A stretch of 64,000 bases of DNA, from positions 83,193 to 147,192 of the forward strand of contig JASANE010028394.1 in assembly GCA_030248225.1 (NCBI GenBank). Reading direction: 5' to 3'. The notes beneath the pieces are model-generated. The model was given only the letters and a program-made list of their open reading frames with translations. It did not search any database and had not been told where the DNA came from. Below are positions 2,955 to 29,539 of this stretch, piece by piece; within the stretch, counting starts at the first letter, position 1; each line of letters opens with the position of its first letter. The position numbers were made by a program, and so were the translations under genes. Origin of the DNA: Trileptium ribeirensis. Taxonomy: Eukaryota; Nematoda; Enoplea; Enoplida; Thoracostomopsidae.

Positions 2955-5039
2955 GAGTTTATCGGACTTCTCCGCGGCACGTTTCTTACTAAAACGCAAC
3001 CGACATCTGCAATGGTGGCCACAGGGAAAGGGGTGGAAGCTGAGAGCGAGTTCGAGAATTGCCCAAGAAGAAATGGAATCAAGAATTAGGGGTAGGAGCC
3101 ACCAAGGGATGCACCGGTCTACCAGCGGTCGGAGATACCCTTTATCACTGGATGAAAGTTGCGCGAGTCTCCAATGGTAGACATGTCATTGTCCTGGGCA
3201 GGGATATCAAGTTTAGGTCAATGTCTGGTGCTTGCTTACGAGCTAAGCTGGATAGGCCGTGTGAACGTATATACACGAGAACAAATTGCAGTTAAAACAA
3301 TTATGTTTTGCAACCTAAACAGGCTTAGACCGTTGGTTGTACGAAAAAGTAAATTGCTCTGGAATAAAAATTGTGAGTTTAGGTAAGGATAGGATTGGTG
3401 CGTTCGGCATCCTTTTAGGTATGGCCTTTTCAGAATTAAGCTAAGACTAAATTGAATTTTGGTTAGCAAAACTGCATACTCGTGCTAATACTGCCTAAAC
3501 CCTGGCGAGTCCGGAGAACGTGCCGTGGGTAATTAATTTATACTAAAAATGCCTAAATAGAACTGGTGAATTTCAAAATTTAACATGAAAATTTTATCTA
3601 ACGTTATTGAATATGAAGACTCAGCTCCTCAACGGTTGTACCCTGGCTAATCCGACTGACAGGCCATGGGACGTTGATAACATTTTGAAGAAAAGTAAGA
3701 CATGACATTAAGTAGAACTTTGTAAAAGTTTGAATTGTAAAACCGAATACATTGAAGACCTGATTTAAAAAGTTTTAAAAAGAAATTGTAAAGTTAAAAT
3801 GAACAGTCCAGAAAACAACATTAGAATATTGCGAATTAAAACAATGATCTATTTAGAGATTTCTTAAATAGTTTTGTATGGCGGTGTCGTGTCCGTTTAG
3901 ACTTGCCCACACACCCTAAGTTAGAATTTACCAGAACGTGTCCGAGATCACAGGTTCTGAGTGCAATACTTATAAATTTCATGCAAAATGTTTTAGGCAA
4001 AAATGTCACTACGGCGAAGAGTCCGCATAACCGTCCCGTAGTGCGTAGTAGAAAGAATTTGAATAAGTTTTGGCATAGTTTTTAAAAAGTAAAATTGGAA
4101 AATTGGAATCAGAAAGTTTGTACCAAGAAATTCTATCGTGGGTGGAATCGGAGTGGGAGTGAACTATATTAGTTCTGAAGGCATCCAAGCTCTATCTCAG
4201 CCCGACAAGCGGCCAGAGTTGAGATACGGACTGGAGCAAGAAGGGACTTTTCATAAGTTCGTTAACTTGTGAGTACACGATAGAATTTTCCGTCATCTAG
4301 GATAATCAGGTCCTACAAACAATAAAGTTTGGTGCTTTACCTTTAGAGATCGTAATATTAATGTTGAAAGATTGCACCAGAACGCTAAAGCTATGACTAT
4401 TTACAGGTCGTCTGAAAATAAAAGAGTAACACTTTATAATATTGAGGTTAACAGCCAGTTGAACAAGAAGCTTTTGCTAACAACTTTAACCCATATTACC
4501 CATAAAGTGCCAACCAAGCAGGTACTGAGAAAATAATGTGGCCCTGCCACCTTGAGCATTTTACCGAAAGTAGGGCTAGCGATGGTGACCTGCACCATCC
4601 GTCGGCTGTAGATCGTATCCGGCAAACTATCAGTAAAATAAGAAATACAACACCTTCAGCTCCTACAGGTCAATTAACACGCACTGTCGTGTATGGAAAA
4701 TTTATTCGACATTAGCTGAAAACTTTTTAAAGATTATATGGTAACACGATTAGTATAACAAAAGTTTACAGAGTGAAAACTTAACAAAAACCCCTGGCCT
4801 TATGCACCAGGTATAACAAGAATAGCATATTTCCTGCATAGCGAAATTTCAGCGAAAAAACCAAAAGTTTTACACCGCGTAACCATCTGTTTCGATAACA
4901 ATTTTTATAATTTTATATTTTGACTAGTTTGGGACAATAGCGTGCGATCATGCATTAAAGGATACATGTACCTTAAATCGTACTACCTGGAGTGTTCGTG
5001 TGTTTCGTAAACCTGAAAAACTAAAGGATTTTATGTGTT

Positions 5040-5460
5040 AGTGTTAGGGACAAGTGACACAGGATTCTCCCCAAATAGAACGTGGGTGTTGGCCCATAGC
5101 TGCCAAGCCCCCTAAGCGTGTAATTTCCCCGGCCTGTGCATTGGACCACCCCTAGGCGAGGCTTGCGCTAAGGCATAGTTCCGACAACTATGTCCCACCC
5201 TAAGGAAGGTTTACAATGTCACAGCCTTCGACGATAGAGCAGCCCATGGTGTGGCAGCCTGGGGTCCAACGGGTGGTGAAAAGGTGCCGGAAAGGTAGAA
5301 AGACCAATCCCACCCAGAGGTTCCCGTTTAAGGAATGGGCTGCCCTTTTTCTGGTCTGCCTTATAACCCGGCTAGGGCTTACTATGCCTAGCACACCCGC
5401 CTCCTCGGCAGGTTCCAGAAATGCAGGTAACCTCCTGCAAAGTCACTGCGAGTGAACCTA
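5040..5460. other. highly conserved block of the giant LTR, with overlapping small ORFs
   Basis: This block and 22836-23250 differ at only about ten positions, fewer than the flanking LTR sequence. It contains a plus-strand frame from ATG 5216 (79 codons; a basic segment near residues 22-31, then a hydrophobic stretch around residues 42-55) and a minus-strand frame of 64 codons (5394-5200). Both frames are preserved in both copies. On the minus strand GGGTTATAAGGC near 5360 could be the TATA box of the LTR promoter. Neither protein resembles a family I know. A conserved promoter/R region explains the block as well as a gene does. Confidence 0.3.
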
Positions 5461-5629
5461 AATATACTTATATGCGTGTGTAGGTATGTATGTGACCTTA
5501 TGCAATGTGTACGGCTACTGCGATGTGTGGGAGTATGTAGCCATATAGGACAGAATTTTAAAAAGTAAGTCCTGACAAAAATACAAAAATATTCAAAGAA
5601 CGCGTGTAGCAAAATAATTACAATGCAAA

Positions 5630-5935
5630 CATTAATAACTACACAAGTTAACCATCAAAAACTAAACGCATGGAAAAGAAAAAGATGAAAAAAAAATATA
5701 ACCATATAACAAAATTTCACATTAGTAAACAAAGCAAAATAAACGAAAATTAAAAAAATAAAAAAAAAGAAAAAAAAAAAACAACGTAAAAAAAATCGCA
5801 CATAATATAACAAAACTAATACATAACACGCAACAATAATACAATAAACTACACACCTCTAAAACTAATACGAATAAAAAACAAAAACTAACAAAGTAGC
5901 TAGCCTTACACAACAGAAACGAAAACTAGCTAGCT
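5630..5935. repeat. A-rich low-complexity segment in the left LTR
   Basis: The plus strand is dominated by A with scattered C and T. The equivalent part of the right LTR (about 23480-23850) is ordinary mixed sequence of similar length, and both resume identity at GTAGCTAGC. This fits a poorly resolved consensus better than real divergence. Confidence 0.5.
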
Positions 5936-6799
5936 AAATTTATTTAATAATAATAATATATTTATAATAATATATATCAAATTTTGAGGAGAAAATTTTT
6001 CAAGAGTTTTGGGGGTTAAAAATAGGGTCATATAGAGGTATCCCATAGGGGTTAAATATATTTCTGGATAGGGATAATTAAGGGGAACCCCATTGGATAG
6101 TTTTAAAGGTTTAAGAAATTGTATAGAGTTGGAAAAAGTCAACTATTGGTGTATTTGATTTAAGAAGAAATTAGTGAAAATTTAGTGAAAAACCCAAGGT
6201 TAATAAACGAATAGAGAAATAAGGGAATTAAGGGGGTTCACCTCCAACACAGGGAGAAGATAAAATAAATAGTCCGACATACTAGGGAAAAGTTGTACCC
6301 AAGTTGGAAAATATCTTAACGAATTTGTAAATTTGATAGAAAAGTAAAAACATTGATTTTTTTAGGTAGAATGGAATATCAAATCAAGGCATAGGGGTGA
6401 TGTACCCCGATATAGGAGTAAATAATGGGTTCTCCCGAGTGGGGATAAGTGTGAACGTACCCATTATGGACTATAACCCACCCCACCGGGAGCAAATAAT
6501 AATAAAACCAAGAGAAATGTGTTATTTGAGTAAATATGGGGAAATTGTAAATTCTAGATTTTGAGTCAGTTTTAAGGGGTAATATATGGGTAAGGGATGA
6601 GAAATAAGAGAGTGTAATATAAAATTTAGATAGTTTTCTCCCCCCCGGAGATAAATATAGGAGTCACCCCTGTGGGAGAATGGATATCCCCAGGGGAGGA
6701 TAATGAAATTAAGTATAATTTTGGAAATTAGGTCAAAACCTATGAAATATTGTCTAGGAGGGAGGGAAATACAAGGTTGGACCTGCCCAAAAGTTGACA

Positions 6800-6820
6800 T
6801 CCCCCGGACCCGACTCCTCA
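6800..6820 (-). promoter_or_regulatory. polypurine tract next to the 3' LTR
   Basis: On the minus strand a purine-rich run (GAGTCGGGTCCGGGGGA) ends immediately before TGTCAAC, the start of the left LTR. This is the position and composition of the primer for plus-strand DNA synthesis in LTR elements. It independently supports the LTR boundary and the minus orientation. Confidence 0.6.
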
Positions 6821-8161: not shown

Positions 8162-11100
8162 TTATTGATGATTGTAGACGCCCCATTCAGCATTTGGCAT
8201 TTCCGGTAGCGGTTGATCCAGAGAGGCGAATATACCGAAATCGTTCTGATTGATACGCCGAATCTGCTCGGGTAGATAACTAATTGGCCGTAGATAATGT
8301 TCAGGCGCCAAATAAGGTGGAGCGCCGAAGCTCGATAAACAAGATCGATATCCCGCGTATAGACGACGCATACGATTGTCCGCACCATCGACCTGTGCCG
8401 CAAAGAAGCGATGAAATTGACGTTGATGTTGCTGCCAGAATGGCTCAATTCGCGCACGTCGACGATTAGCAGTATTCAGCCATTGATTTCGCTCCGGATG
8501 AGTATGCATCACGGGTTCCTGCAGAAGACGAATTTGAATGTCCAGTTTCTCCAGTGTGCTACGAACCTTTTCCAAAGCATCCCCGAGTTGTGGTCCGAAT
8601 CGTTCATACCAAGCTCGAACCTTTCGTCTAATGCGAGATTTATACACGTTTTTCGGATGTTGCTCTAACGCCGTCATCTGTCGATTCATTTCGCTGAGAT
8701 TGAACAGCAATAAAATTGGAAACGGGGTCCGATGCATGACTTTGGTAATGTTCAATGTTTTACTATAAAAATTAAACCGAATTTGACTCGCGAGTGCTTG
8801 TAGAACGACTTGGTAGATTTGATTCGCTCCCGGTTTCGTTAGTTTCGTTTGAAAGTATTGAAACGCCGTAAGCCCTACTCGCTCGATAACCTCGATGTAG
8901 TCGATGGTTCGGACTGGTTGTGGCAATTCCGCTACCAATTGGAAGAAACGCACTTGAAGCTGATTGAAGTACTCCCTTTCCGTCCGTATAAAAGCATTTG
9001 GGGTATACCTTGGTCGCCACTGTATTAACTCCGGTAGCAGTGGTTGATACCGTAATTCTTCCGTGCCAGGTTGTTCTGCATAATCCGATAACCAGGTAGC
9101 ATCGGTAGCTGCAACGGTGACCATATCAGTACCCGAATCTTCTTCCGGCAATGCAAATCCTCGTATTTCCTCCTCCGGTGATGAACAAGGCGCTGACGTC
9201 GGAGAACCGTAGAAACTATAGACACGTTGTTGTGTCCCTGGTTCGGCTACCCTTTGAGGAATTGTGATTTTTCCGAGGTGAGTTCGCAACGTCGATACTG
9301 GTCGTTGTGTAGTGAACGGTTGCGTACCTCGAGAAACTTGCGAATCTTCGCGGATGGTCGTTCGTCGTTCCCGTTTCGCAGTTGGTTGCTGCGTTGATTC
9401 CACACGTGCAAGAATCCGCTTAGCTCGTTCCACCGGATCAGTTGTTTTACCGACTACCATTATGTCCGGACGTGCTGGCTGTTTGCCTGAAGCGGACGGA
9501 GCACCGACAGCATCTTCATCCGAGGTAGAAGTCGATTCATCCTGAGATTCAGAGGAAGACTGACGTCGTCGCTTGACTTCCCTAGATCGTCTTTGCTTTT
9601 CAGCTCCGATAACAGCTGAAATTTCATCGCACTGCACCATCATGTCTGCAGTGACAGGTCGCGCTTGCAAAGCAGTAATTTGCGTTGCTTGATCTTGAAT
9701 TCGCTCTTCCAGCGTCGTGATGCGAGCGCGATACTGATATATACTCTCTTGCATTGTTTCGTTTTGACGCTGCAAACGCGTCATTCCTTGTTGAGATTGC
9801 GTATTCTCCGTTTGTGAATCACGCAAAGCTTGTTCCAGTTCCGCGTTACGTCGCTCATTTACAGCATTGACTTGCTGTAGTTGTACTAATTCCGCTTGTA
9901 CGCGAATCATTTGTTCTTCATCACTGCGACATATTGTCGGTACTGTTCGAATGGCATTATCAGGCATGGTCCATGTAGTAGGTCTTGTGCACTCTGGCAT
10001 ATCTGCTTGAAGTCGAAATTTAGCAAAACCTTGTTGTCGACGTGATCGAAAAGTACGACTGATCGGTATATCGACATTGTCTATCTCCGGAGTTCCCGCA
10101 TGGATTTCCGGATGACCATCATCGTTCAGCATACGTCGTATCGGAATAGATAACTCCAACGCAGTTGAACAGCCGGTATGATAATCTTGTCCACCGCAAC
10201 AATCGGTGGTAGCGTGATCTGGGCATAACAGCTTATGACAATGTAAACACTGTACGTATGGCACAGCCACGCAGACATCACGCAAAATGTGCTTCGCTTT
10301 ACTCCATACCCATCGTCCAAAAGCACAATGCCCAATCGCTGTTGGTTGAGAATGGCATCCATGTTCTGTGATATGCCCACGACAAAAATTCAACCGACAA
10401 TGTGCACACGTGAAAATAGACATTCGTTGGCAAGTGACCGTTTGACATCTTATATTGGTTTCCACCGGCCAAGTCGGCTGCCGTCTAATAACGAACAAAG
10501 GCTCGTATTGACCATGATCGCCAATAAAGTCTTGTAACCCACTTCGCTGGAAATTCATATAAATATTCGATGACTGGCCAACAACGGTATCTCCCATCGG
10601 AACTTGCCCGGAAATCATTGGCGCCATTACATATGGGATAGTACTGGAGCCAGACGCAACCGTAGACAATGTCCCCAGTCCAAGCACAAGATTAGAGATA
10701 GTTTGTGCCGTTGAGACGATAGAAGGTTCCATCGGCATTTGTAAAGCTGGCGAATAAGTAGTCGGTGCACAGAGTGGCATTATCCAATCCGAAGTTGTAG
10801 TGAGGCACGTTGTTGCCGTCGACTGTGTCCAAGTATGCACAGGTGGTGGAACTGTAAACGCCAAAGTAGTACCCAATGGTCCCACTATCGAAGGCACTAG
10901 TGTAGTAACATCAGCCGAAGGTAACGACGGTTGTTGCACTGATATCGTTAAGGGTTCCCAGATTGGATTCAATTGTTCGGGTTGAATGCTAGTTGCTACC
11001 ACCGTTTCCGTAACCGCGACAGCGTGGCCGGATGCGGAGCTAGTCGCCGGTTCCAAATACGTTTGGTAATCTGCAGCCAGCGTTTCTGTTTCAAACCATC

Positions 11101-12947
11101 GATCAATGTAAGCTGGTGAATTCATTGCGCTGACTGACGTCGGTGTCGTATCTTTTGTCGAAGGGACATGGCCCATCTGTGGTGGTGGCACCATTTGAGG
11201 TATTGGCTGACCTTGAGTAACCTCAGCTTCCGAAATCTGCTCCGTAATACGTACTGCCGCAATAGCGTCTTGTAATTGTTCAGCCCCAACGATCGTAGTT
11301 CCCATTGTATCAGCCAACGGCGACTGAACGGTCACATCGCTTAACTGCACGTTCGCTGAAGATACAACCGCCGACGTGGGAGTAACTGATGGCTCCGATA
11401 AATTCGGTTGGGTTGCCGCAGATGTACTTTCCTCGACCGACTCTTCCTGCCCTATCACCTCGTCCACAATCTCCACATCGGGACTAGATTCCTCCGAAAA
11501 AGTTTGCTGTTGCGCACGTTGCTGCACTCGTTCTCGTTGTTCTTCTACATGATAGGCATAATCCGATAAAATTGTCGGTACCACGCCAAAACGTCGTCGC
11601 TGATCCTCGATTACTCCGTATCGTAGCGATGCATTGATGATCTTGCTTTTTTCTTTCGTTAAACGAACACCGTGCAGGTTGTAATCAGGTCGTGGCAACT
11701 CCCAAGCACTCCGATATTTAGCAGCTACGGCGCTCCAACGTATCTGTTCCGAAGTATCCAACGCCGAATACATATATTTGATGTCCAGTTCATCTGGATC
11801 ACGGACATAAATCATCGGATAGGATTGATGAAAATGAAAATCCTTGCAGGTCCGTTGACACAGCTCGAAATACTTTGGCATAAAACCTGCTTCCACGTCT
11901 GGATACTGTTTCGCTTTTTGAAAACTGAATTCGATTTGCGGCATTTTCAAATAATCCATCGGCAAAAATGTCCATATCAAATCTTTCATCCATTCCTGCA
12001 CATCTTCGACTGTTCTTATTCCTCCATCCATAGTTGAACGTTCTTCGGCTGCCATGATCGCTAAATCAGGTATTAAGGCATCCATTGCAGCGTATACTAT
12101 GAATTCACGATACGATACTCGTTTTCGTGGAGCCGTCTGCCGGTATTCCTTAACTTTCTTTTTGTATTCCTTAGGTGGTGGCGGAAAATAGTCGTAGATA
12201 GTTTCGCCAAACGATCGCATTGCTATTTCTCCCCAGGGAGTCATTGCAGGTCGTTCCTGGTACAGCGTTTGTCGAAACTGTTCATCCAGTCGATTGCTTT
12301 TCGGCGCATACTGCTCGTGTTCGTACTCCATCTTCAAAGCTTGAAGATCGAGCCAGTGATCCGCTTTCAGCGGTGGTTTTCCACGCAGCACTTCGAGACG
12401 TGACAAATAATGCCGATCGCAATGGCCAGCCCACGTAATAATATACAGGGTTTCGTCTTCCAGAAACTGACGCAAAGAGTCCGATATGGTAAGATAAAAG
12501 GCAATCAAGTCGATGAAGACAACTAAGCCTTCCATCGTAGCCAACTGGATCGTTGCAGCAAAACCCTGCTTTACTCCGAGCCGAGTCATATTTCGGACGT
12601 TAAACCAAGACTTGGATAAAAACGGTGCCACACGTCCGTAACGCGAACGTCGGGGATAACGTGTTGCCAACGTTACTCCGATGCCGAGATCATCCTGGCT
12701 TAGCAAATCCCGTGCGTTTTCATCCTTCAACCACTGTGGTACTTGAAACGCTTCACTGTCTAGACCGAATATATTCCAGCTAGATTCCCTCAGCAATGCC
12801 AATGCCATGTCCAACTGAGGTTGGGTCCGGACACAGATAACCATTCGTGCCAAACCAAGTCGACGATAGAACAGTCGAGCGTACGTAATAATCTCGATTT
12901 GATTTTTGGTGCGCTCTTTGATGGTTGTATCCACCAACTCCGGCGGT
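8162..12947 (-). CDS. ORF3 of the giant element: DEDDy exonuclease-like, zinc cluster, coiled-coil protein
   Basis: An uninterrupted frame of about 1591 codons in the place usually held by env. Residues about 35-300 resemble an RNase D/EXD-type 3'-5' exonuclease: motif I LDSEAF (D60, E62), motif II AGHCDRHYL (D174), a DHWLDLQALK segment near 193, and motif III VYAAMDAL (Y282, D286). Residues 470-800 are S/T/P/Q-rich linker. Two Cys/His clusters follow: C831, C836, C844, C847, C852, H855, H859, C861 (AN1-like spacing), and C889, C897, C900, C905, H908, C913/C914. A coiled coil spans 1006-1095 and a nuclear-localisation-like basic run lies near 1114-1126. Residues 1295-1591 form a conserved-looking domain I do not recognise. 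There is no signal peptide or membrane span, so it is not an envelope. The first ATG is codon 32; upstream codons are open back to a stop at 12965, and a splice acceptor (TTTATTCTAG) lies at 12949, suggesting this is a 3' exon. The exonuclease call is motif-based. Confidence 0.75.
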
Positions 12948-13522
12948 CTAGAATAAATATACGTCTATGATTATACAAATTACAGCGTCTCGCTCGCCAT
13001 GAGACATAACAAATAAAAATATTACTTCAAATGAACATTTCAAGTTCAATTTACGTATAATATCGCTAATTTAATACATAAATTTGAAACAGCCACAATC
13101 AAAATTATAGCGCTTTGACAAATCTCGTCTAAGGGTTCATTTTATAATGTTGAAGGACTTTTGAATCAAGTGACCAGTATTTGTAATATAAAATGTTCCG
13201 AATTGGCTTTAGTAATGGGAATACTCAATATCACATATTAAATCAACCGTAGTAAAAATTGGGAAGTGGTATCAATAGTTACAAAATTTGTCATTCCGCA
13301 TGACTTTACACTTGTTGTAATACCATGTCTCATATAATTTGGCTCAAAATCCAAATATGTCATACCATAACTCCATTATAACAACTGCTTTGGCCACAAT
13401 CATAGCAACTTTAAATCCTGAATTTCACTAAACAAAAATTTACCAAATACCATTTAGCAAAATTTTAAAAATTATTAGAATATCTATTACGAATAAACGC
13501 GAAAATTATATCAGCAAAGTTG
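12948..13522 (-). other. pol-ORF3 spacer with candidate splice acceptor
   Basis: An AT-rich spacer of 575 bp without an open frame. Its end next to ORF3 reads TATTTATTCTAG on the minus strand (AG at 12949-12948), a good pyrimidine tract plus AG. The exon would begin with one base before an intact codon. A stop-start or readthrough link from pol is excluded by the distance, so ORF3 is presumably expressed from a spliced or internally initiated RNA. Confidence 0.45.
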
Positions 13523-16500
13523 CTACAACTGTGTTCCCACACTACACTCAGCACAAAACCATTGTTCGGATACCGTTGGTAATTTATTAAGCCCCACACA
13601 ATCTAAATGAAACCAATGAGGTTCGGAATGAGCCCCATCGCAAGCTACCCATTCATTTAGACGCCGTGGTTTATTTTTACCAGGTACTTTAGGTGCATTA
13701 ACTTGATGACAAACCCTACAAAGATCTCTAATTTTAGGGTTGGTAGGCATTTTACCCCGTAAATAGCTTAAGTATTGTTCTATATTACCCAGGTATAATT
13801 TCACCATATCCTTGTGGACTAGTAAATCCCGACCCCGTGGTTGATTAATTTCCCGAATTTCTAGATTATGACCATCCACCCGTTGTACCCTATACAAGGT
13901 GCGAAATAGGGGTTCCAACTTTGGGTGAAATCCCCGACCACGAGCAGTCTTTTCCAACAAGAATACTAAGCTGCCCTCGACAATGTCCGCTCGATTTGCC
14001 GAAACACGTCGATCATATTGTTTGCAGTATTGTTCCTGAGTCCGCTGTAACTGATCTTTACATTCGGTCCATATTACTTGTAGTTCAGTGTACAAATCGT
14101 GTACATATTTTTGTACCGAATCCGAATGTACTTGTAGTCGCCGTGGTTCCTCTGCCAGATCCATATCGCGTCCATAATTCATACGATAAGGCGTTTCACC
14201 AGTAGCTGCGTTGGGTGTAATACGATACGCCATGCAGACAAGTGGTATATATTCATCCCAACAATCCGGATTCTCATCGGCAATTTTACGTAGGACACGA
14301 ATAAGTGTTTGATTCCAGCGTTCTACCAATCCGTTGGATTGATGATGATCTGCTACGACAAAATTGAGTTTCACCCCACGAGAACTCAAAGCCTTTTGAT
14401 GTGTCTCTGCCATAAATCCAGCACCGCGATCGACGATGACAGTTTTCGGATGACCATGTCGACTGGAGACACCTTGAATAAATGTAGCCACAATTGATTT
14501 TGCCGTCGTATCTGGTACAGGAAACGCTTCTGGCCATTTCGTCAGATAGTCTATCCATGAAATAATATATTTATTGCCATTTTCCGTAGCAGGTAATGGA
14601 CCGACGATATCTACACCTACTGTTTCCCAAGGTGCATACGGTATAGCAATAGGATGTAACGGAACTTTACGACTTCCACCTGGGTTGAAGCGATTGCAAA
14701 CAATACAATCTCGTATAAACACATGTACATCCGCTGCCATGGTTTGCCAATAATAGCATTTTGCAATTAATGGATAAGTTCGCTCCCAAGCGAGATGACC
14801 GGCAAAGTCCTCATGGTATCTTTGCAGTAATTCCTGTCGAAAGACGTTTGGTACAACCAACTGGGTGAATGCTACAGCACGTCGCTGATGCCGATAGCGC
14901 CAGTGTAGATGGAACAATAACTGATCGCGTAAAAAGAAATCGCCCTGGTTCCGGCATAGCCACCGATAACGTTCATTCGGTAGCCCTGCTACTTCACCGT
15001 TGGCTAGCTTGAAAGCCCGAATTTCCTCAATCTCCGGATCCAATTGCTGTTCCCGAAGGATTTGTGCTTGCGGCCACGGCCAATCTTGGTCGATAATATT
15101 ATGACGCAAGTTTACCACATCATGTTGAATCGGACCGCGATTTCTTGCTTGTTGATCCTTTTGATCAGCAGCTTCAACATCCACTGCGTACGCTACCGCA
15201 TCGTCTCGTTCATAAGCTGCAGGCGAATAAGCTTTCTCGATATCTTCCTTTGAAATTTGAAGCAGAGGCGGTCGACTCATACCATCGGCATTCGTTAACT
15301 TAAGCCCTGGCATGTACTTTACCTCAAAGGAATATTCTTGCAACTTAATGGTCCATCTAAAAAGTCTACCCGTAAGCCCATCTAAATTCCGACGGCCGTT
15401 CAGTATATACGTTAAACATTGATGGTCAGTATACACTGTAACGTAATTACCTATGAAATATGGTCGATATTCCTTAAATGCACGGACTATAGCTAAACAT
15501 TCCTTCTCAGGTATGCTATAGTGCATTTGAGCAGGTGAAAATTTCTGCCCGCCATAAGCAATTACACGAAGTCGACCATTTTCATCTTCCTGTTCTAATA
15601 CATTGCCGACACCGTAATCACTAGCGTCCGTAAACAAAACAAAAGGTTTTGTATAATCCGGATAGGCTAAAATTGGCGTCGTAGTGAGCGCTTCCTTCAG
15701 CTGCTCAAAAGCTGCATCACATGCTTCCGTCCATCCTGACGAAAACTTGACTCCTCTAGGACGCTCCTTCGTAGTTTCATACAGCGGTGCCGCAACAGTA
15801 GCGTAATTAGGTACAAACCGTCGATAGTAATTGGTAAGACCAAGGAAACTGCGTACTTCTTTCACACTAGTGGGTTTAGTACATTTTTGCACCTTTTCGA
15901 TCTTACTAGGATCCGTACTTATTCCATCACGTGAAACAACGTGTCCAAGGAATTGTACCTTTTCCTGCGCAAAATGACACTTTTTCCCTTTGACTTTAAG
16001 ACCGGTGTCGCGTAATCGTTGCCAAACTTGATGTAAATCAAATAAATGCTGCCAAAAATTTGCTGAAAATACAATTATATCGTCGATAAAGCACAGACAA
16101 CTGATTCCCAGCAATCCCAGCAACACAGTCTGCATAGTTCGCTGAAACGTAGCAGGTGCGTTGGTTAACCCAAACGGCATACGATCCCATTCGTATAACC
16201 CTTCGTGGGTGACAAAAGCCGTTTTAGGTTTACTTTCTTCATCCATACGAATCTGCCAATAGCCCGATTGTAAATCCATGGTGGAGAAGTAACGTGTTCC
16301 ACGAAGTGATTCCAATTGTTCATTGGTACGTGGCAATGGAAACGCATCTTTCACCGTTAAAGCATTTACTTTACGATAGTCGATACAAAATCGTAACGTA
16401 CCATCCTTCTTGTGCACCATCACTACTGGACTGGCCCATGGACTGTTTGATGGTTGTATCGCTCCAGTAGCTTTCATTTGCCCAATTTGTCGCTCAATTT

Positions 16501-17044
16501 CCTGTCGCATTGCGTGCGGCGCAGGATACGCTTTTTGCCGAATAGGTGGCGCAGAACCCGTGTTGATTGTATGCAACGCAACACTACAATCGCCGAGTTC
16601 CTCATTCGACTTAGCAAAAATATCACGATGTTCATCCATCAGCAGTTGTAGATAGCGTTTTTCCACATCATCCAATACTGATGACGATAAATCAACACCA
16701 GGTATCGGTTCCAGTTGATCCTTGCAGCTATTTTGAGTTATGAGATGTTGCTGCAACTGCTCCGGATTTATCCAATGCCGTTGCATTGGCTTAAGCGCCG
16801 AGCCCAACTCGATGTCACTAGTTTGTACCTGACCGATTTCCTCTATCTCCTCGTCTGGTGGATAAATATTGTAGTTGGCTATAGGCTCGATCCTAACGCA
16901 AACGAGTCCTTTTGGAACAATTAATGTTGAATTAGTGGTATTGACGATAGGCACCCAGAGTTGACCACTAGATTGGACAACTCCCACAGATCTCGCGACC
17001 AGCACCGTTTGGAAAATGGCCGCGCCATCTTCTGTCGCTTCCAT
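13523..17044 (-). CDS. pol: Pol: reverse transcriptase, RNase H, integrase with C-terminal PHD finger
   Basis: 1173 residues. The reverse transcriptase spans about 120-420, with MDLQSGYWQI (D257) and FIDD (319-322), the catalytic aspartates intact. RNase H spans about 460-600 (FTDAS D473, PEKE near 513, YTDH D540). The integrase has a zinc domain H744, H750, C780, C783 and catalytic residues D812 (VDIVGPL), D872 (VDRGAGF) and E908 (GLVERW). A divergent GPY/F-like module lies near 1040-1060. Residues 1109-1167 form a PHD-type zinc finger: C1109, C1112, C1135, H1139, H1146, C1149, C1164, C1167, with WFHLDCVGL as core. PHD fingers usually read histone H3 tails, so this may tether the integration complex to chromatin, as chromodomains do in chromoviruses. 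The protease is not here; it lies at the end of gag. All active sites are intact. Confidence 0.95.
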   Translation of the reverse strand: MEATEDGAAIFQTVLVARSVGVVQSSGQLWVPIVNTTNSTLIVPKGLVCVRIEPIANYNIYPPDEEIEEIGQVQTSDIELGSALKPMQRHWINPEQLQQHLITQNSCKDQLEPIPGVDLSSSVLDDVEKRYLQLLMDEHRDIFAKSNEELGDCSVALHTINTGSAPPIRQKAYPAPHAMRQEIERQIGQMKATGAIQPSNSPWASPVVMVHKKDGTLRFCIDYRKVNALTVKDAFPLPRTNEQLESLRGTRYFSTMDLQSGYWQIRMDEESKPKTAFVTHEGLYEWDRMPFGLTNAPATFQRTMQTVLLGLLGISCLCFIDDIIVFSANFWQHLFDLHQVWQRLRDTGLKVKGKKCHFAQEKVQFLGHVVSRDGISTDPSKIEKVQKCTKPTSVKEVRSFLGLTNYYRRFVPNYATVAAPLYETTKERPRGVKFSSGWTEACDAAFEQLKEALTTTPILAYPDYTKPFVLFTDASDYGVGNVLEQEDENGRLRVIAYGGQKFSPAQMHYSIPEKECLAIVRAFKEYRPYFIGNYVTVYTDHQCLTYILNGRRNLDGLTGRLFRWTIKLQEYSFEVKYMPGLKLTNADGMSRPPLLQISKEDIEKAYSPAAYERDDAVAYAVDVEAADQKDQQARNRGPIQHDVVNLRHNIIDQDWPWPQAQILREQQLDPEIEEIRAFKLANGEVAGLPNERYRWLCRNQGDFFLRDQLLFHLHWRYRHQRRAVAFTQLVVPNVFRQELLQRYHEDFAGHLAWERTYPLIAKCYYWQTMAADVHVFIRDCIVCNRFNPGGSRKVPLHPIAIPYAPWETVGVDIVGPLPATENGNKYIISWIDYLTKWPEAFPVPDTTAKSIVATFIQGVSSRHGHPKTVIVDRGAGFMAETHQKALSSRGVKLNFVVADHHQSNGLVERWNQTLIRVLRKIADENPDCWDEYIPLVCMAYRITPNAATGETPYRMNYGRDMDLAEEPRRLQVHSDSVQKYVHDLYTELQVIWTECKDQLQRTQEQYCKQYDRRVSANRADIVEGSLVFLLEKTARGRGFHPKLEPLFRTLYRVQRVDGHNLEIREINQPRGRDLLVHKDMVKLYLGNIEQYLSYLRGKMPTNPKIRDLCRVCHQVNAPKVPGKNKPRRLNEWVACDGAHSEPHWFHLDCVGLNKLPTVSEQWFCAECSVGTQL

Positions 17045-17046
17045 TA
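17042..17046 (-). promoter_or_regulatory. TAATG stop-start junction between gag-pro and pol
   Basis: The gag-pro frame ends in TAA (17046-17044) and the pol ATG (17044-17042) shares its last A, giving TAATG. Such overlaps support termination-reinitiation, known for example in the SART1 retrotransposon. Frameshifting or stop readthrough is not required. Confidence 0.7.
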
Positions 17047-20000
17047 CAACCTGGGTGCCAGACGGAAAACCTGTGGATCCGCCTGTATCTCCAATACAGC
17101 TACCGTTCGTCCGTCAATTTCTTGTTGCTTTGCAGTAAATCCACAATTCCGATCCACCTTTTGGTAATCGGCAGCCCTGAAATTCCACGTAAATACCTCC
17201 ATTGGTATACCCGCAATAGAGACATCGGGTCCCGGATAAGCGATTGTAACCTGATATTGTTCGAAGAATTGATGACCCAAAATAACTGGATATTTCAGTT
17301 CCTTGACTACATAAAAAGGATGAAATTCCACCGTAGTCAAACCAACATTGACCGGTATTCGTGCAATTCCCATGCATGATAATTCGCTTCCATTAATTGC
17401 ACGAAGTCGCTTTGCACCACTGATACATGGCCAAGCGTTCCAAGACGTTTCGTATAACTCTGCATTGACTAAGCTAACGTCTGCACCGGTATCGACAAAT
17501 GCCCGAGCAATAACGCCATCCAACACTACATCGATAAAGACTCGTCCAGTTTGCCGTCGCTCTTCCAGCGGCTGCGCAATAACGATCCGATGATCATCGC
17601 TGGATTCTAACGAATTTGCTGGGTAATTATTCCCAACCTGGAAAATATCGGCTTCGATAAGACCGAAATCCCAAACCACTTCGTCATCGGTGTTTGTTCC
17701 CGTAGATTCCACATTTGCTTCCTCATCTACGTCTACCGCATCCATCCACTCTGCGATTTCCGCTACATGTGGAACGGATCGATCTGTCGAAACTCCAGAT
17801 CGATTTGGATCCGTAGCCTGCCCTGCCGTTGTTGTCGGTAACGAAGGACAATTAGTCGAAATATGACCAAAACCAGTACAGGCGAAACACCGTCGTCGCG
17901 TATTCACCAATGGATTAACGCGCAAATTGGTTCCCGTACTCAACAGAGTACCGCCTCCAATGCGTTGTGGTCGTCGTATTCCTTCTGAAGCAACGTTACC
18001 ATTACGTTCACTAATCCACTGTCTCCGTGCAGTTGTACTCTCCGATACCGCATTAGCCCTCGGTGTTGTTTGCAATTTCATCTGCTCCAAGAATTGTTTC
18101 ATCATTTGTTGCAATTCCGTCGTAGATGATTCATGATTCTCAGCTGCAGTGCTCTTCACCTTCGTTTCGTTCACAGTTGTTGACTGGGTAGTGACCGGAA
18201 ACGTCGATACGCCTGTCGAACGAACTGGAGCCGCAGTAGCACGAGGCACAAATCCACTACGCGTGACTGTCTGTGCTACCGCTACTTGTGGATTCTCATT
18301 GTCGCTATCCTGCGGATCGGCAGCCATTTCCATTTCAGCTGCGGAAACATCCTTCATCCTGACCGTTTTTCGCAAAATTCCCGGTCGAACATTTCCATCC
18401 GTTCCCTCCTCACGGAAATGCGTATCACAACGTCGTAGGAAATCATAGCGTTCCACTGCAATTCGAGCAGCTTCCTCCACATCATGTCGATCTCCACATC
18501 GAGTTTGTATATCTGCTCCAATCCCATGACGTAAGCCTTTAAGGAACGTGAAGAAACATTCCGAATAATTGTGCTGTTGCTCAATCAGACTGAATTTTCG
18601 TAACCATGTGGCTTGCAATCTTGCTTTAAACGCCATAATAGTTTCACTCCGACCTTGCACCATACTCGCTTTGAAATCATTCAGCCGATCACCAAAGGAT
18701 TTCAAAAGATCGTAATGACGAAGAAATCCGCGTACATAATCCTCATAATAAGCTGGTTCCGGTAGCGTCGATTCAACTGCTCGAAGAACGTATCTGGCTG
18801 ATTCTCCAGCCATTGCTAAGGTGAATAACGTTACCTTATGCGTATCCAACCGCACATGGAAGCTACGCACTGTTCGTTCGAAATCTTCTAACCAGCCAGG
18901 AAAATCATCGCCTTTGAATTTTTCCCATGGATGTCGAAGCACATAAGCCGGTATTTCTGGCATACCAGAGAATGTTGACCAAGCTGAAGCCCGACCAGTG
19001 GCATTCGCATCAGTTCCACTATGCAGCTGCCTTCGTAATTGTTCTCGTGCAGCAGGTTCTTGAACTGACAAGATACCAGGTGCATTCGCGGTAGATGTTC
19101 TTTGTTCCGTTGGATTGGCCTGCGAAAGTGCTGGACCTCGCCGCCGTCGATCGTCTTCCTCCTGCATAGTAGTACGCAAGATATCCAATTCAGTAGGTTT
19201 GATATCCGGAACTGGTCGCCGAGTTTCCTGTTGAATTTCGCCAACCCAATCACGATAGCGAGATTGCGTGTGTTCATACACCGGTTCCTTCACCACCGCT
19301 TCACTTCGTACCGGTAATCGAAAACGATCACCAACATATGCAGAACGAGTGGGATCCGCTTGAATTGTAGTCGGAAGACCACCACAAACAGCATTTTCCA
19401 ACGCTTGATACAATACATTCTCAGCCTCACGAACCTCAAACTCATCCGCAGAAGAGTGCCGACTGATGACGCTGCGGTAGTGTTCGATCTCCTGGGCCAA
19501 CGACTGCATACGCCGTTCCGCAGTATCAACACCTTGACTTATTCGCTTCACCCGAGTACTGTTTTCACCTGGCTCCCTATAAGCAGACTCTACGCGACTG
19601 CGAGATCGCTCAACTGCAATGCGATCTTCAGGTCCAAACACATCAAGTCCCCGCTGAGGTTCATCCGGACCCAATGGATAAGGAGGTGGAATATATGGTG
19701 TTGGTCTCGCTGCACCCACTGTTCTTCCATATTCCGACTGCTCAGAAATTACAGGTTGTCTACGCCGACCTCCATTATCACTAGTATCAGTACTACTTTG
19801 TTTTGCTCCTCGCCATTTATCTGCCATTTTCCGACAATGGTCCTGAGCTCGCGTTATCTCATCATCCAGATCTGCGAAATAACGTCGTCGTCTTGTAGTT
19901 GAAGACAATTCCAATGGAATATCTCTTTCCACACCTGGATTCGCAGCTATTACTGTAACGTCTGGTTCAAGCGGAATAGGTTGCCGCCGCACTTCTGGAC

Positions 20001-20199
20001 GCCAGCCCGTAGAAGCTGTAACTCTGGGTCGTCGTGGTATCCGAGAGGTTGTTCCGACTCCCGTCGTAGCAGCAAACGTGAAGATAGGTGGTGCCACCGT
20101 GGAAAACATCACACGTTCAGTGGTTGTGGTTGATATAGTTCGTTCAACCTGGTCTTCACATTCAACAAACACACTATCTGGATCCCTATCAGATTCCAT
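17044..20199 (-). CDS. gag: Gag-protease polyprotein
   Basis: 1051 residues starting at an ATG with a stop a few codons upstream. Residues 1-400 are charged, S/T/R-rich and probably disordered. Residues about 425-595 are a Ty3/gypsy-type capsid (WEKFKGDDFPGWLEDFERT at the start, then helical sequence ending near AVERYDFLRR). A single CCHC zinc knuckle (C771, C774, H779, C784) follows. Residues about 885-1000 are a retropepsin with the active site FVDTGADVSL (D903) and a flap/C-terminal motif VILGHQFFEQ. Protease at the gag end, with pol in a separate frame, differs from the usual gypsy layout of protease at the start of pol. The unusually long N-terminal extension is unexplained. It presumably forms the virus-like particle and processes it in the cytoplasm. 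Confidence 0.93.
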   Translation of the reverse strand: MESDRDPDSVFVECEDQVERTISTTTTERVMFSTVAPPIFTFAATTGVGTTSRIPRRPRVTASTGWRPEVRRQPIPLEPDVTVIAANPGVERDIPLELSSTTRRRRYFADLDDEITRAQDHCRKMADKWRGAKQSSTDTSDNGGRRRQPVISEQSEYGRTVGAARPTPYIPPPYPLGPDEPQRGLDVFGPEDRIAVERSRSRVESAYREPGENSTRVKRISQGVDTAERRMQSLAQEIEHYRSVISRHSSADEFEVREAENVLYQALENAVCGGLPTTIQADPTRSAYVGDRFRLPVRSEAVVKEPVYEHTQSRYRDWVGEIQQETRRPVPDIKPTELDILRTTMQEEDDRRRRGPALSQANPTEQRTSTANAPGILSVQEPAAREQLRRQLHSGTDANATGRASAWSTFSGMPEIPAYVLRHPWEKFKGDDFPGWLEDFERTVRSFHVRLDTHKVTLFTLAMAGESARYVLRAVESTLPEPAYYEDYVRGFLRHYDLLKSFGDRLNDFKASMVQGRSETIMAFKARLQATWLRKFSLIEQQHNYSECFFTFLKGLRHGIGADIQTRCGDRHDVEEAARIAVERYDFLRRCDTHFREEGTDGNVRPGILRKTVRMKDVSAAEMEMAADPQDSDNENPQVAVAQTVTRSGFVPRATAAPVRSTGVSTFPVTTQSTTVNETKVKSTAAENHESSTTELQQMMKQFLEQMKLQTTPRANAVSESTTARRQWISERNGNVASEGIRRPQRIGGGTLLSTGTNLRVNPLVNTRRRCFACTGFGHISTNCPSLPTTTAGQATDPNRSGVSTDRSVPHVAEIAEWMDAVDVDEEANVESTGTNTDDEVVWDFGLIEADIFQVGNNYPANSLESSDDHRIVIAQPLEERRQTGRVFIDVVLDGVIARAFVDTGADVSLVNAELYETSWNAWPCISGAKRLRAINGSELSCMGIARIPVNVGLTTVEFHPFYVVKELKYPVILGHQFFEQYQVTIAYPGPDVSIAGIPMEVFTWNFRAADYQKVDRNCGFTAKQQEIDGRTVAVLEIQADPQVFRLAPRL

Positions 20200-20534: not shown

Positions 20535-20824
20535 AAAATCGGTGGAGGCACATAGTTTGGCTCCCTAAGCGCTTGCCGCAAGTACCGTTGAGCACGTAAC
20601 GCATGCCGTTGTCGCGTTTCAGCTTCGGTAGGAGGTCGCTCCGGATCATCAGCCGGAGTCGATGCCCGTGAGGGTTGCGCCGATTTCCCCCGCGGTGGTG
20701 TCGCCGTCTTACGCCGCTTGCGTGAACGCCGTTTAGGGGGTGTCCAATCGCCCTCGCTATAGTCGCCTTCGGATGCGTGCGTTTGGTATCCGCTAATAGT
20801 TACCTCCTTGGAAGTAGAAGCCAT
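20531..20824 (-). CDS. small basic leader ORF of the giant element
   Basis: 97 codons starting with ATG at 20824, the first ORF downstream of the 5' LTR. The N-terminus is acidic/serine-rich (residues 15-27), followed by a strongly basic nuclear-localisation-like stretch (PPKRRSRKRRK, residues 29-39), a P/S-rich segment, and an arginine-rich helix (residues 65-90). No known domain is present. Its last codons overlap a strong GTAAGT donor, so it may be a first coding exon that supplies an N-terminus to gag and/or ORF3 rather than an independent protein. Confidence 0.5.
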   Translation of the reverse strand: MASTSKEVTISGYQTHASEGDYSEGDWTPPKRRSRKRRKTATPPRGKSAQPSRASTPADDPERPPTEAETRQRHALRAQRYLRQALREPNYVPPPIL

Positions 20825-21197
20825 GCTGGAATTAGAAAAATATTACAACATTACTTTCTTATTACAATATTTCCATGCAAACCACCATATATAGGTTCCT
20901 TTCCATTAAATATTAACAAGAACAAGTTCTATCACAGCAACGAACAAATCGTGCTGGTAACGTGCAACAAGCAGATATAAAATTAACAATTAACCGATAA
21001 CCTTTCAAAGAGTTTATTTCAGGCTAAACCACCTTTCTACCTGCCAGCAGTACTTTTACAGTTAAGATGTCCAGCATCATACTCTTACCATATAACAAAA
21101 TAGCTAACCCTATATCTAACAAATTGGATTTTAACCAACTTTAACAAAATATGTGTAACCTAAACTTCGACAATGACATGCCTCGTCATGGCCACCA
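20825..21197 (-). other. 5' leader of the giant element with possible primer-binding site
   Basis: About 370 bp without a convincing ORF, lying between the 5' LTR and the leader ORF. Directly next to the LTR edge the minus strand reads TGGTGGCCATGACGAGG (21197 leftwards), which starts with the TGG expected of a tRNA primer-binding site. I could not match it to a specific tRNA, so the site is only a candidate. Confidence 0.35.
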
Positions 21198-24100
21198 TGT
21201 GAGTTTATCGGCCTTCTCCGCGGCACGTTTCTTACTAAAACGCAACCGACATCTCCAATGGTGGCCACAGGGAAAGGGGTGGAAGCTGAGAGCGAGTTCG
21301 AGAATTGCCCAAGAAGAAGTGAAATCAAGAATTAGGGGTAAGAGCCACCAAGGGATGCACCGGTCTACCAGCGGTCGGAGATACCCTTTATCACTGGATG
21401 AAAGTTGCGCGAGTCACCAATGGTAGACATGTCATTGTCCCGGCCAGGGATATCAAGTTTAGCTCACTGTCCGGTGCTTGATTATGAGCTAAGCTAAGTA
21501 GGCCGTGTGAACATATATATACCAGAATAAATTGCAATTAAACCAATTATGCCCTGCAACCTAAACAGGCTTAGACCGTTGGATTGAAAAAAAACAAAAA
21601 AAGAAAAAAAAGCATCAATAAAAAAAAACCAACCCCGAACGCAAAAAAAACAACTCATAACGTTATCGAATATTGAACACTTAGCTCCTCAACGGTTGTA
21701 CCCTGGCTAGGTCCGACTGACAGGCCATGGTGGACATTGTAAATAAAATATTTAATATAATAATGAAGCAAAAAAGAGAAAAAAAATATAACAAAAATAA
21801 AAAAGTAAAAATTTAATAAACAAAAAGTAACAATTTAGGACCTAAATAAAAGAAGTTTTTTTAAGAAAAGAAATTGAAAGTTAAAGTAAAATAGAATAAA
21901 TAAAAAAGTCAAGAAAACAACAGTAGTAGAATGGATTGCGAATTAAAAAACAATAATATAATTAGTTCTGAAGGCATCCAAGCTCTATCTCAGCCCGACA
22001 AGCGGCCAGAGTTGAGATACAGACTGGAGCAAGAAGGGACTTTTCATAAGTTCGTTAACTTGTGAGTACACGATAGAATTTTCCATCACCTAGGATAACC
22101 ATGTCCTACATACAATAAAGTTTGGTGCTTTACCTTTAGAGATCGTAATATTAAGAGAGCAGGATTGCCCCAGAACGATAAAGCTCCAACTATTTACATG
22201 TCGTCTGAAAATAAAGGAAGAACAATACCATTTAAAATATTGAGGTTGACAGTTAGTTGAAACAAAAGCTTTTGCTAACAATTTAACCAGTATTACCACT
22301 AAAGTGCCAACCAAGCAGGTACTGAGAAAATAATGTGGCCCTGCCACCTTGAGCATTTTTTCGAAAGTTGGGCTAGCGATGGTGGCCTGCACCATCCGTC
22401 GGTTGTAGGTCGTATCCGGTAAACTACCAGTAGAATAAGAAATACAACACCTTCAGCTCCTACAGGTCAAATAACACGCACTGTCGTGTACTGAAAATTT
22501 ATTCGACACTAGTTGAAAAACTTTTTAAAGATTATATGGTAACACGATTAGTATATAACAAAAGTTTACAGAGTGGAAACTTAACAACAACCCCTGGCCT
22601 TATGCACCAGGTATAACAAGAATAGCATATTTCCTGCATATTGAAATTTTAGCAAAAATCAAAAGTTTTACACCGCGTAACCAAGTTTACTTATAACAAT
22701 TTTTATAATTTTTATATTTTTGACTAGTTTGGGACAATAGCGTGCGATCATGCATTTAAGGATACATGTACCTTAAATCGTACTACCTGAAGTATTCGTG
22801 TGTTTCGTAAACCTGAAAAACTAAAGGTTTTTATGTGTTAGTGTTAGGGACAAGTGACACAGGATTTTCCCCAAATAGAACGTGGGTGTTGGCCCATAAC
22901 TGCCAAGCCCCCTAAGCGTAAAATTTCCCCGGCCTGTGCATTGGACCACCCCTAGGCGAGGCTTGCGCGAAGACATAGTTCCGACAACTATGTCCCACCC
23001 TAAGGAAGGTTTACAATGTCACAGCCTTCGACGATAGAGCAGCCCATGGTGTGGCAGCCTGGGGTCCAACGGGTGGTGAAAAGGTGCCGGAAAGGTAGAA
23101 AGACCAATCCCACCCAGAGGTTCCCGTTCAAGGAATGGGCTGCCCTTTTTCTGGTCTGCCTTATAACCCGGCTAGGGCTTACTATGCCTAGCACACCCGC
23201 CCCCTCGGCAGGTTCCAGAAATGCAGGTAACCTCCTGCAATGTCACTAGACGTGAACCCAAATTCACTGTATAATGTGCGGGTGTATGCATGGTGACCTA
23301 GTCGCGAATGCAAACGATCTATGTGTGGGGGAATGCATAGACAAGTTATGCAATGCGATACGGCAACCTGTAAACTGATCAACAACCCGCCAATATACCT
23401 AAATCAGGAATATAGCGCGTATACCGCATCAATTACCACGGAAACAGGGAGTCCATTCAAAATAGCAAGAACATACTATTAATAACTGTCCGTCCGCTCG
23501 TGACAAAAATGGGAAAAATGAAAAAGCTCGAAAAGAAAAATAATCCAACGCGTTAGGCAAAACATGTCATCATAGAAGACAAACTACAACGAAAAAGAAA
23601 AAAAACGAAAAATCTGCGCGCATAGCACAATGCACACTATATTGATACATAATAATCCAGCACAACAAAACTCGTTACACTACACTACGTAACAGCAAAA
23701 CATACGTAACGAATATAATAAAATACTCCTCCGTCGCACAACTAACAACATAATAATTAATACGTTCTCACACAGCCACAACATTAAACACGTCGACTAA
23801 TAGGAACAAAACTAACAAAGTAGCTAGCTTTACACAACAGTAACGAAAACTAGCTAGCTAATTTTATTTATTAATAATAATAATATATATTAATAATATT
23901 TTGAAAATTTTAAGAAAATTTTTGGAGAGTTTTGGGTGAGAAACAGGATTATATAGAGGTATCCCATAGGCGTTAAGTATATTTCTGGATAGGGATAATT
24001 AAGGGGAACCCCATTGGATAGTTTTAAAGGTTTAAGAAATTGTATAGAGTTGGAAAAACTCAAATATTGGTGTATTTGATTTAAGAAGAAAATAGCGAAA

Positions 24101-24695
24101 ATTTAGAGGATTCTGAACCCGATGAAAATGGAATTAAGGGGTTTCCAACGCAGGGAGAAGATAAAATATAGTCCGATGCTAAGGAAAAATTGTATCCAAG
24201 TTGGAAAAATCTTAATACTTTTGTAAATTTGATAGAAAAGTAAAAACATTGATTTTTTAGGTAGAATGGAATATCAAATCAAGGCATAGGGGTGATGTAC
24301 CCCGATATAGGAGTAAATAATAGGTCCATCCGAGTGGGGATAAGTGTGAACGTACCCATTATGGACTATAACCCACCCCACCGGGAGGAAATAATGATAA
24401 AACCAAGAGAAAGGTGTTATTTGAGTAAATATGGGGAAATTCGTAAATTAATGAATTTTGAGTCAATTTTAAGGGATAATATATGGGTAAGGGATAAGAA
24501 CTAGGAAATGTAATATGAAATTTAGATAATCTCTCCCTCCCGGAGATGAATGTAGGAGTCGCCCCTGTGGTAGAATGAATATCCCCCAGGGAAGGATAAG
24601 TAAGTTGACTATAATTTTGATAATTAGGTCAAAACCTATGAAATATTGTCTAAGAGGAAGGGAAATACAAGGTTAGACCTGCCCAAAAGTTGACA
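21198..24695 (-). repeat. 5' LTR (right copy) of the giant gypsy element
   Basis: A direct repeat of 2955-6799, about 3.5 kb. On the minus strand it begins TGTCAACTTTTGGG (24695) and, if the edge is at 21198, ends in ...ACTCACA, giving the canonical TG...CA. Similarity to the left copy stops abruptly after TTGACA at 24695. The next bases, GTATG, would be one copy of a 5-bp target duplication. It is shorter than the left copy because segments near 21585-21665 and 21735-21950 are replaced by A-rich low-complexity sequence. Confidence 0.8.
21585..21960. repeat. A-rich low-complexity patches in the right LTR
   Basis: Two A-dominated patches (21585-21665 and about 21735-21955) flank a normal conserved island (21665-21735, matching 3600-3672). 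The left LTR has ordinary mixed sequence at the first patch position. As with 2455-2945, poor consensus is the simplest explanation. Confidence 0.5.
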
Positions 24696-28199: not shown

Positions 28200-29115
28200 T
28201 GCGTATTTACAGCATGAGGCCGAGCGGAAATTCAATGCTCTCCCTCCAGGGAATTCAGAAAATTTATGAGCTGGTTAGAGCCTCGCTTAAGGAATTTCTA
28301 ATATCTAAAGAAACAGCAGATCAATATAGCATTCAGCTGCGTCCTAAGAAACGCATGGCCCTAATAAACCGGAGGAAATATATGCTAGAGATATTGAGCG
28401 TTTGGTGAGGAAGGCTTATAATACCATAGACAAAGACTGGATAGCTATGGATAACTTTTTAAACGGACTGAAGAATTCTATTAAGAGGCTTGTCATGACC
28501 TCAAACTTCATGTCCTTGCAGGTGGCTATTTCTAGAGCATGTGAGCAGAAATGCAATGAGCGGATGGTTGAGTTTACTATCTAAAAGAGCTTAAAATTGA
28601 AAGCTATGTTCTCAAATGTTGAAAAAGTTGAATATTCGAGTAATATTGAGTCAAAATTGGAAGCTATTATAAACTTGAAGAGGGAATTACTACAAGCAGC
28701 GGTTAGTCTTAAGGGTAAGTCAAATGATAGCTTCCGCGCTGTAAACCTTGAACAAAATAGGCGTAGAATGACGAATGATGATAGGAAAATATGTGATTTC
28801 TGTAAGAAGTCTGGTCATATAAGATTCAACTGCATTCAACGACAGCAGAATTTTCCACAAAATTCTCACTATAGATCTTTACAAAATATTAATAGATGGC
28901 CTCCAAATAGACTTCCTCAACATTTTTGGCAGCCCCAAGTGTTGCCAGATAATGGACCAAGACAAACTTTTAACGAACCGCGGATTCCAACTGTGCAGAC
29001 TACTCGATGTAGGAGCTACACTGAACAACCCGCATGGTTGAACGACATTTGTAGAGCGAATACTTTAAGATATGCTGGTCAACTAGGTGACTGGGTGGCA
29101 GAAATTACAGACTAA
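28200..29115 (+). pseudogene. gag remnant with zinc knuckle
   Basis: Three overlapping open stretches in different frames (28214-28408, 28402-28584, 28597-29115) give capsid-like helical sequence. A CCHC knuckle CDFCKKSGHIRFNC (about 28790-28835) follows, then a proline/asparagine-rich tail. Frameshifts near 28400 and 28590 break the frame. The order and the knuckle fit a Ty3/gypsy gag. Confidence 0.75.
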
Positions 29116-29539
29116 GAGAATAGAACGAAATATTAGCTAATAGAATAAATGGACAATGATGCTTCTACTTCGCAGTTACACTCTGCCATGATGTGCCATT
29201 TCCAAAATTTAAGAGTCGCATCAACCGGAAAGGACATGTCTGCCGTGTGACTTACTACAATGAGAAGTTACTCTATGATGGTGCCGACCCATCTGATTTA
29301 CTATTAAAACAAATGAAGGTTCTGAGGAATCACATATAATAAAAACAAAAAATAGCGTTTTACGTCGTTATACTGCTAAACACGCACCTATTGCTAACCA
29401 CGATGAGTGTAAAGTGCCTATATGCTGACAATTCATTCTCTGAGGATTGAATACGAGCGCTGAATCGTGTGCTTAGATATCGACCCTATAATATTGAAAC
29501 TCTTTTCTAGAAAAATGGCACAAAGCACCCCTATGGGGG

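Follow-up and report, generated by a model that had tools for sequence, protein, structure and literature searches.

A giant Ty3/gypsy long terminal repeat (LTR) retrotransposon of the nematode Trileptium ribeirensis carries, downstream of pol at the position of env, a third long open reading frame (ORF) whose product quite probably contains a DEDDy-type exonuclease-like domain. The element lies on the minus strand of a 64,000-nucleotide stretch of contig JASANE010028394.1 (positions 83,193 to 147,192; assembly GCA_030248225.1), hereafter the window, and all coordinates refer to this stretch. We read the third ORF (ORF3) as encoding an accessory DEDDy-type nuclease, expressed from a spliced mRNA and used for auxiliary processing of the element's own nucleic acids, and assign this reading a probability of about 0.52.

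An intact third ORF with DEDDy motifs in RNase D order

ORF3 (8162..12947, minus strand) comprises 1591 uninterrupted codons. Its predicted exon start is taken as 12947; the mechanical start is a TTG at 12937, giving a frame of 12937..8162, and no stop interrupts it upstream as far as 12964, next to a TAG stop at 12967-12965. The first ATG is residue 32. An initial annotation of this DNA had described an intact frame of about 1591 codons downstream of pol with DEDDy motifs in RNase D order, and both descriptions hold: the five DEDDy residues are all present, as D60 and E62 in LDSEAF (ExoI), D174 in AGHCD (ExoII), and Y282 and D286 in YAAMD (ExoIII). They fall within residues 32-312 (12002..12844, minus strand), the candidate exonuclease-like domain, in which a large insert separates ExoI from the second strand.

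The motif triple occurred in 2 of 20,000 shuffles of ORF3, a figure to be read with the caveat that the pattern was written after the sequence had been seen. When residues 30-128 were shuffled, the hhD.E motif appeared in 2.4% of cases and the looser hD.E in 6.7%. In the Pfam comparison, DNA_pol_A_exo1 (PF01612) gave E-values of 0.19 with the whole of ORF3, 0.0049 with residues 1-320 and 0.0042 with residues 125-312. In the profile, which is 173 positions long, the match begins at 37 or 42 and ends at 159, and ExoI lies just upstream of it, across an insert of about 60 residues. An unguided MAFFT alignment of the ORF3 N-terminus with 22 enterobacterial RNase D sequences placed AGHCD against AGSED, LDLQ against IDTQ and YAAMD against YAAAD, with ExoII and ExoIII in register. 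The likeness to RNase D and DNA_pol_A_exo1 lies in the order of the catalytic motifs and in the local patterns AGxxD and YAAxD, whereas ORF3 differs in its large post-ExoI insert, its sub-cutoff score and its fusion to unrelated modules.

Several results weigh against this assignment. The gathering score of DNA_pol_A_exo1 was never reached (17.1-17.4 bits for the domain pieces, compared with 23.6), the ExoI piece alone (residues 31-81) matched no Pfam family, and ExoI was out of register in the MAFFT alignment. The hhalign comparison with a nine-sequence RNase D-like profile was not significant, with equal or higher scores from 6 of 200 shuffles and from 1 of 16 other ORF3 segments; the alignment itself covered residues 130-174 and ended at the ExoII aspartate, in the expected register. 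Homologue searches were negative at the thresholds used: none of 4083 candidates from 5.8 billion proteins reached E≤0.01 with the whole of ORF3, and none of 2587 reached E≤10 with its N-terminal 330 residues. The N-terminus had no match in PHROGs and one irrelevant match in NCBIfam (E 0.2), and its two PDB sequence searches returned 7 and 3 weak matches, no exonuclease among them. AlphaFold modeled it with low confidence (mean predicted local distance difference test score, pLDDT, of 34.0 alone and 46.7 with the 22 RNase D rows), and Foldseek with the latter model gave 118 matches at E≤10 and none at E≤0.001. Because these models are too poor, they count neither for nor against an exonuclease. 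Among the 50 Foldseek matches listed is 5v5f (RICE1), a DnaQ-like exonuclease, but its E-value of 3.5 is meaningless.

The same results bear on whether the DEDDy resemblance arose by chance, through scanning a long ORF by eye for short motifs. The non-significant hhalign score, equaled by shuffles and by another ORF3 segment, the missing Foldseek fold match, the unmatched ExoI piece and the choice of the motif pattern after the fact would all suit such an origin. Nonetheless, the Pfam similarity (E 0.004-0.005) runs from ExoII to ExoIII with ExoI immediately upstream, and the triple is rare among shuffles, which makes coincidence an unlikely explanation. The domain might instead be a dead remnant, in which case ORF3 would act mainly as a structural or RNA-binding protein through its zinc and coiled-coil modules, like inactive DEDD derivatives. 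The sub-threshold profile score and the fact that the bulk of ORF3 lies outside the nuclease-like domain agree with this idea, but all five catalytic residues are kept, unexpectedly for a decayed domain in an otherwise divergent sequence, and we regard it as improbable. On the balance of motifs and profile similarity, a DEDDy-type exonuclease-like domain at residues 32-312 is thus the reading that we hold with good confidence.

Additional modules of ORF3

Downstream of the nuclease-like domain, ORF3 carries two Cys/His clusters with AN1-like spacing (10169..10447, minus strand; residues 831-923, as 831-861 and 889-923), which share the core spacing C-x7-C-x2-C-x4-C-x2-H. Pfam zf-AN1 (PF01428) matched this region with E=0.003 and 18.1 bits, short of the cutoff of 27.9, and the Pfam Tc5 transposase C-terminal family matched with 0.0055, also below its cutoff. 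Residues of about 1001-1115 (9593..9937, minus strand) likely form a coiled coil, judging from a heptad register in which 56% of a/d positions are L, I, V, M or A and from weak matches to coiled-coil families. A stretch with basic patches follows (9362..9574, minus strand), containing KRRR at residue 1122 and KRERR at residue 1188. The C-terminal region (8165..9055, minus strand; residues 1295-1591) is unrecognised; a search with the C-terminal 301 residues (1291-1591) gave a best Pfam E-value of 0.08 and no NCBIfam family.

The Cys/His clusters, the coiled coil and the unrecognised C-terminal domain had been noted in the initial annotation and were found again here. The basic nuclear signal proposed there is present as the two patches, but as a signal within ORF3 it is modest. 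The annotation's broader description, of an exonuclease-like, zinc-binding, coiled-coil protein in place of an envelope, is borne out by the motifs, the sub-threshold Pfam similarities and the lack of a strongly hydrophobic stretch, but not by Pfam scores above cutoff.

The maximum 19-residue Kyte-Doolittle mean in ORF3 is 1.81, whereas an env-like stretch in a further gypsy element of the window reaches 2.35, and no transmembrane stretch is evident by hydropathy, although no dedicated predictor was run. The env reading of ORF3 was set aside because of this absence of a strongly hydrophobic stretch. A role in env-like or cell-to-cell transmission would be conceivable even without env similarity: the position downstream of pol and the splice signals resemble those of env expression. 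In addition, PMC11952523 describes Drosophila MDG1-group elements that are transmitted independently of an envelope by means of a small transmembrane ORF. The hydropathy profile, the basic nuclear-type clusters and the enzymatic motifs all speak against such a role for ORF3, and we consider it very unlikely.

Predicted splicing of ORF3

A predicted upstream exon (20535..20825, minus strand) holds a frame of 96 codons plus 2 nt, which opens with an ATG at 20824 directly after an acceptor-like TTCCAG, and is followed by a GTAAGT donor at 20534. It encodes a basic cluster, KRRSRKRRK. Between the start of the element and the ORF3 acceptor, a distance of 11,748 bases, a scan limited to the pattern GTRAGT gave this donor and no other. 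The predicted 3' splice site (12947..12950, minus strand) reads TATTTATTCTAG followed by A and opens the ORF3 exon in matching phase: the donor at 20534 leaves two bases over (phase 2), and the acceptor TATTTATTCTAG (TTCTAG) at 12948 needs exactly two. Since the sole GTRAGT donor is in phase with this acceptor, ORF3 is probably expressed from a spliced mRNA whose 96-codon leader would supply a nuclear-localisation-like cluster. The support is good but not conclusive, because a phase match alone has a one-in-three chance.

The host element

The element, spanning 21.7 kb in total, is a giant Ty3/gypsy LTR retrotransposon with protease, reverse transcriptase (RT), RNase H and integrase in that order, in agreement with the gypsy context given by the initial annotation. 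The 5' LTR (21198..24695, minus strand; 3498 bp) starts with TGT and ends with ACA, and a primer-binding-site-like stretch starting with TGG (21181..21197, minus strand) follows it directly. The 3' LTR (2955..6799, minus strand; 3845 bp) also starts with TGT, and it is directly preceded by a polypurine-tract-like tract (6800..6816, minus strand) that is G-rich rather than purely purine. The element thus has paired LTRs of the TG..CA type with both priming-like sites, the end of the 3' LTR being lost into a low-complexity T/G tract. This T/G-rich tract (minus strand, about 2400-2954) abuts the 3' LTR, whose terminal bases are missing there together with any target-site duplication; the tract is possibly poor-quality assembly. 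No target-site duplication is visible, with the 3' LTR continuing into low-complexity sequence. Rfam at the gathering threshold and a tRNA scan gave no match in the window.

In their alignable parts, the two LTRs differ by 187 mismatches (6.9%) and 32 gap openings across 2721 alignment columns, and outside these parts they contain further blocks that are non-homologous. If all this divergence had accumulated after insertion and without selection, the three ORFs should contain about 18 stops and about 67 indels, yet all three are open throughout, leaving 11.4 kb of coding sequence intact. Copies may have recombined, the assembly may have mixed them, or the ORFs may be under constraint. Because the LTRs hold non-homologous blocks, we favor recombination or assembly mixing over constraint. 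No second copy of ORF3 was found in the protein database or in viral contigs, the latter giving no match when searched with ORF3.

A PHD-like segment at the end of pol

The gag-protease ORF (17044..20199, minus strand; 1051 a.a.) contains a zinc knuckle and, at its end, an aspartyl protease, both sub-threshold in Pfam. The pol ORF (13523..17044, minus strand; 1173 a.a.) contains RT, RNase H and integrase, recognised by Pfam as RVT_1 (1.6e-36), RT_RNaseH (5.6e-34) and rve (2.5e-9). The gag stop and the pol ATG overlap as TAATG, rather than being joined by a frameshift (window positions 13523-17070). No dUTPase was matched at E≤1 by Pfam in gag or pol. At the end of pol lies a PHD-finger-like segment (13544..13720, minus strand) that has the Cys4-His-Cys3 pattern of the PHD finger (PF00628) and a Pfam score below cutoff (E=0.00057, 20.3 bits, cutoff 24).

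Among 7968 scored sequences, 7561 were relatives of pol at E≤1e-10, and 120 of these were listed for comparison. By a pattern that we wrote ourselves, a PHD-like segment stands at or near the end of 4 of the 120 (P0003, P0014, P0017 and P0029). The closest relative in the alignment among those listed is P0003, a fragment of 847 a.a. with 50% identity. A midpoint-rooted tree was built from 119 of 122 sequences, P0012, P0013 and P0016 having been removed because of gaps. In it, the present pol has P0003 as its sister (support 1.0), P0014, P0017, P0018 and P0036 join this pair (0.999), and P0029 is next outward with weak support (0.548). The PHD is therefore frequent in this pol group but not seen in every member, since P0018 and P0036 lack the pattern. 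P0014 has a further domain after its PHD, PF08719, which its source names ribA/ribD-fused. Viral contigs gave no match to pol alone, and with the pol alignment 1 of 88 stretches was a relative, matching over 81 residues of integrase at 27% identity. Among the matches listed, in a literature mostly without subscription journals, no report described a gypsy pol ending in a PHD; a PHD in the Ginger1 transposase, whose integrase is gypsy-related, is described in PMC2836005.

Other elements in the window

Two further gypsy elements were observed. Near the end of the window, a 1638-a.a. ORF at 59049-63965 (minus strand) carries the domains from protease through RT and RNase H to integrase, which are all that Pfam recognises in it. 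In frame upstream of them lies a region that looks env-like by eye and is hydrophobic over about residues 259-277. A degraded element at 28597-35650 (plus strand) has RT and integrase pieces followed by an ORF at 35033 that looks env-like by eye, in which a basic site, NHRNKRG, precedes a hydrophobic stretch; this ORF had no Pfam match. A 329-a.a. ORF at 45569-46558 (minus strand) had no Pfam match at E≤0.01; by eye it looks like the final part of a Penelope-like RT that carries a GIY-YIG-type tail. With regard to the 1638-a.a. ORF, an env in frame before pol is described for Burro as a first case in PMC6431247.

Relation to known retroelements and possible roles

The idea of a DEDDy ORF3 in LTR elements is not new, since PMC5408684, published in 2017, reports RNase D-like DEDDy ORF3s in LTR retrotransposons of bdelloid rotifers, namely Juno and Vesta. 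According to that paper these ORFs were gained on at least two occasions, and relatives occur in the Penelope-like Athena elements. In place of env, the present element has, as Juno and Vesta do, an additional ORF after pol that carries RNase D-like DEDDy motifs. According to the same source, Juno, Vesta and TelKA have a dUTPase in pol between protease and RT, LTRs of 159-551 bp and DEDDy ORFs said to be without coiled coils, and a DEDD motif changed to DEED is reported, whereas the present element has no dUTPase match, LTRs of 3498 and 3845 bp and a likely coiled coil in ORF3. Its size, the two AN1-like clusters and long C-terminal region of ORF3 and the PHD-like pol end also set it apart. 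For its lack of a dUTPase match, its long LTRs, its likely coiled coil and its PHD-like pol end, we do not file it among the bdelloid DEDDy ORF3 elements. Zinc-type motifs and fusions as such are not unique to the present ORF3, because the Vesta2 and Vesta5 DEDDy ORFs have a Cys-His-Cys motif and one bdelloid ORF3 type combines DEDDy with GDSL (PMC5408684). Among the matches listed, within the same literature as above, no paper described a DEDDy ORF3 from any organisms other than bdelloids.

Exonuclease domains in retroelements also appear in PMC6431247, PMC5718144 and PMC6338049; in the searched text of PMC5348765, which PMC6338049 cites beside a DnaQ-like domain, the words exonuclease and DnaQ were not found. 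The Terminons, giant Athena Penelope-like elements of bdelloids (PMC6431247, PMC5408684), share with the present element a giant size and a DEDDy exonuclease among accessory genes, but they have a Penelope-type RT, in contrast to the gypsy-type RT, integrase and LTRs found here. Burro, a planarian giant gypsy (PMC6431247), is likewise an animal gypsy element of very large size that carries additional coding domains. It holds these domains and env in one giant ORF1, with some accessory ORFs besides, whereas the present element divides its coding sequence among three long ORFs, the third of which is exonuclease-like.

We propose that the upstream exon of 96 codons would be joined to ORF3 in a spliced mRNA, that the zinc module and the coiled coil may assemble the protein onto the ribonucleoprotein or complementary DNA of the element, and that the nuclease domain, if it adopts the predicted fold and is catalytically active, would trim 3' ends of RNA or single-stranded DNA, its candidate substrates, within the element's own cycle. 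A nuclear location of the protein is presumed. This nuclease would belong to the RNA- or DNA-processing roles that the initial annotation had suggested alongside an anti-silencing one. For the bdelloid ORF3s, PMC5408684 suggests 3'-end processing of retrotransposon RNA.

The anti-silencing role would amount to counter-defence, with the ORF3 exonuclease degrading or trimming host Piwi-interacting or small interfering RNAs, or their precursors, in the nucleus or in silencing granules, so that the element escapes silencing. The basic clusters, the zinc and coiled-coil modules and the DEDDy-like domain would be compatible with it, and PMC5408684 names mut-7, EXD1 and Maelstrom as silencing-linked DEDD-type proteins. 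Against this role, the catalytic residues of ORF3 are intact, whereas Maelstrom and EXD1 are described as inactive in that paper, where the bdelloid extra ORFs, as a group, also have no unambiguous link to copy number. We give counter-defence a low probability. The same paper further notes that the bdelloid extra ORFs do not deviate significantly from neutrality. Its bolder version, in which the gypsy lineage with the PHD-bearing pol would have gained, independently of bdelloids, a spliced nuclear DEDDy exonuclease with zinc and coiled-coil modules that suppresses silencing by acting in trans on host small RNAs or their precursors, appears doubtful.

Under the preferred reading, an accessory nuclease serving the element's own nucleic acids, this is probably a further, structurally different LTR element with a DEDDy-type nuclease at the env position. 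Its intact catalytic set, predicted spliced leader and extra modules make the question of the nuclease substrate directly testable, and the case suggests that DEDDy nucleases may serve retroelements beyond the published rotifer cases.

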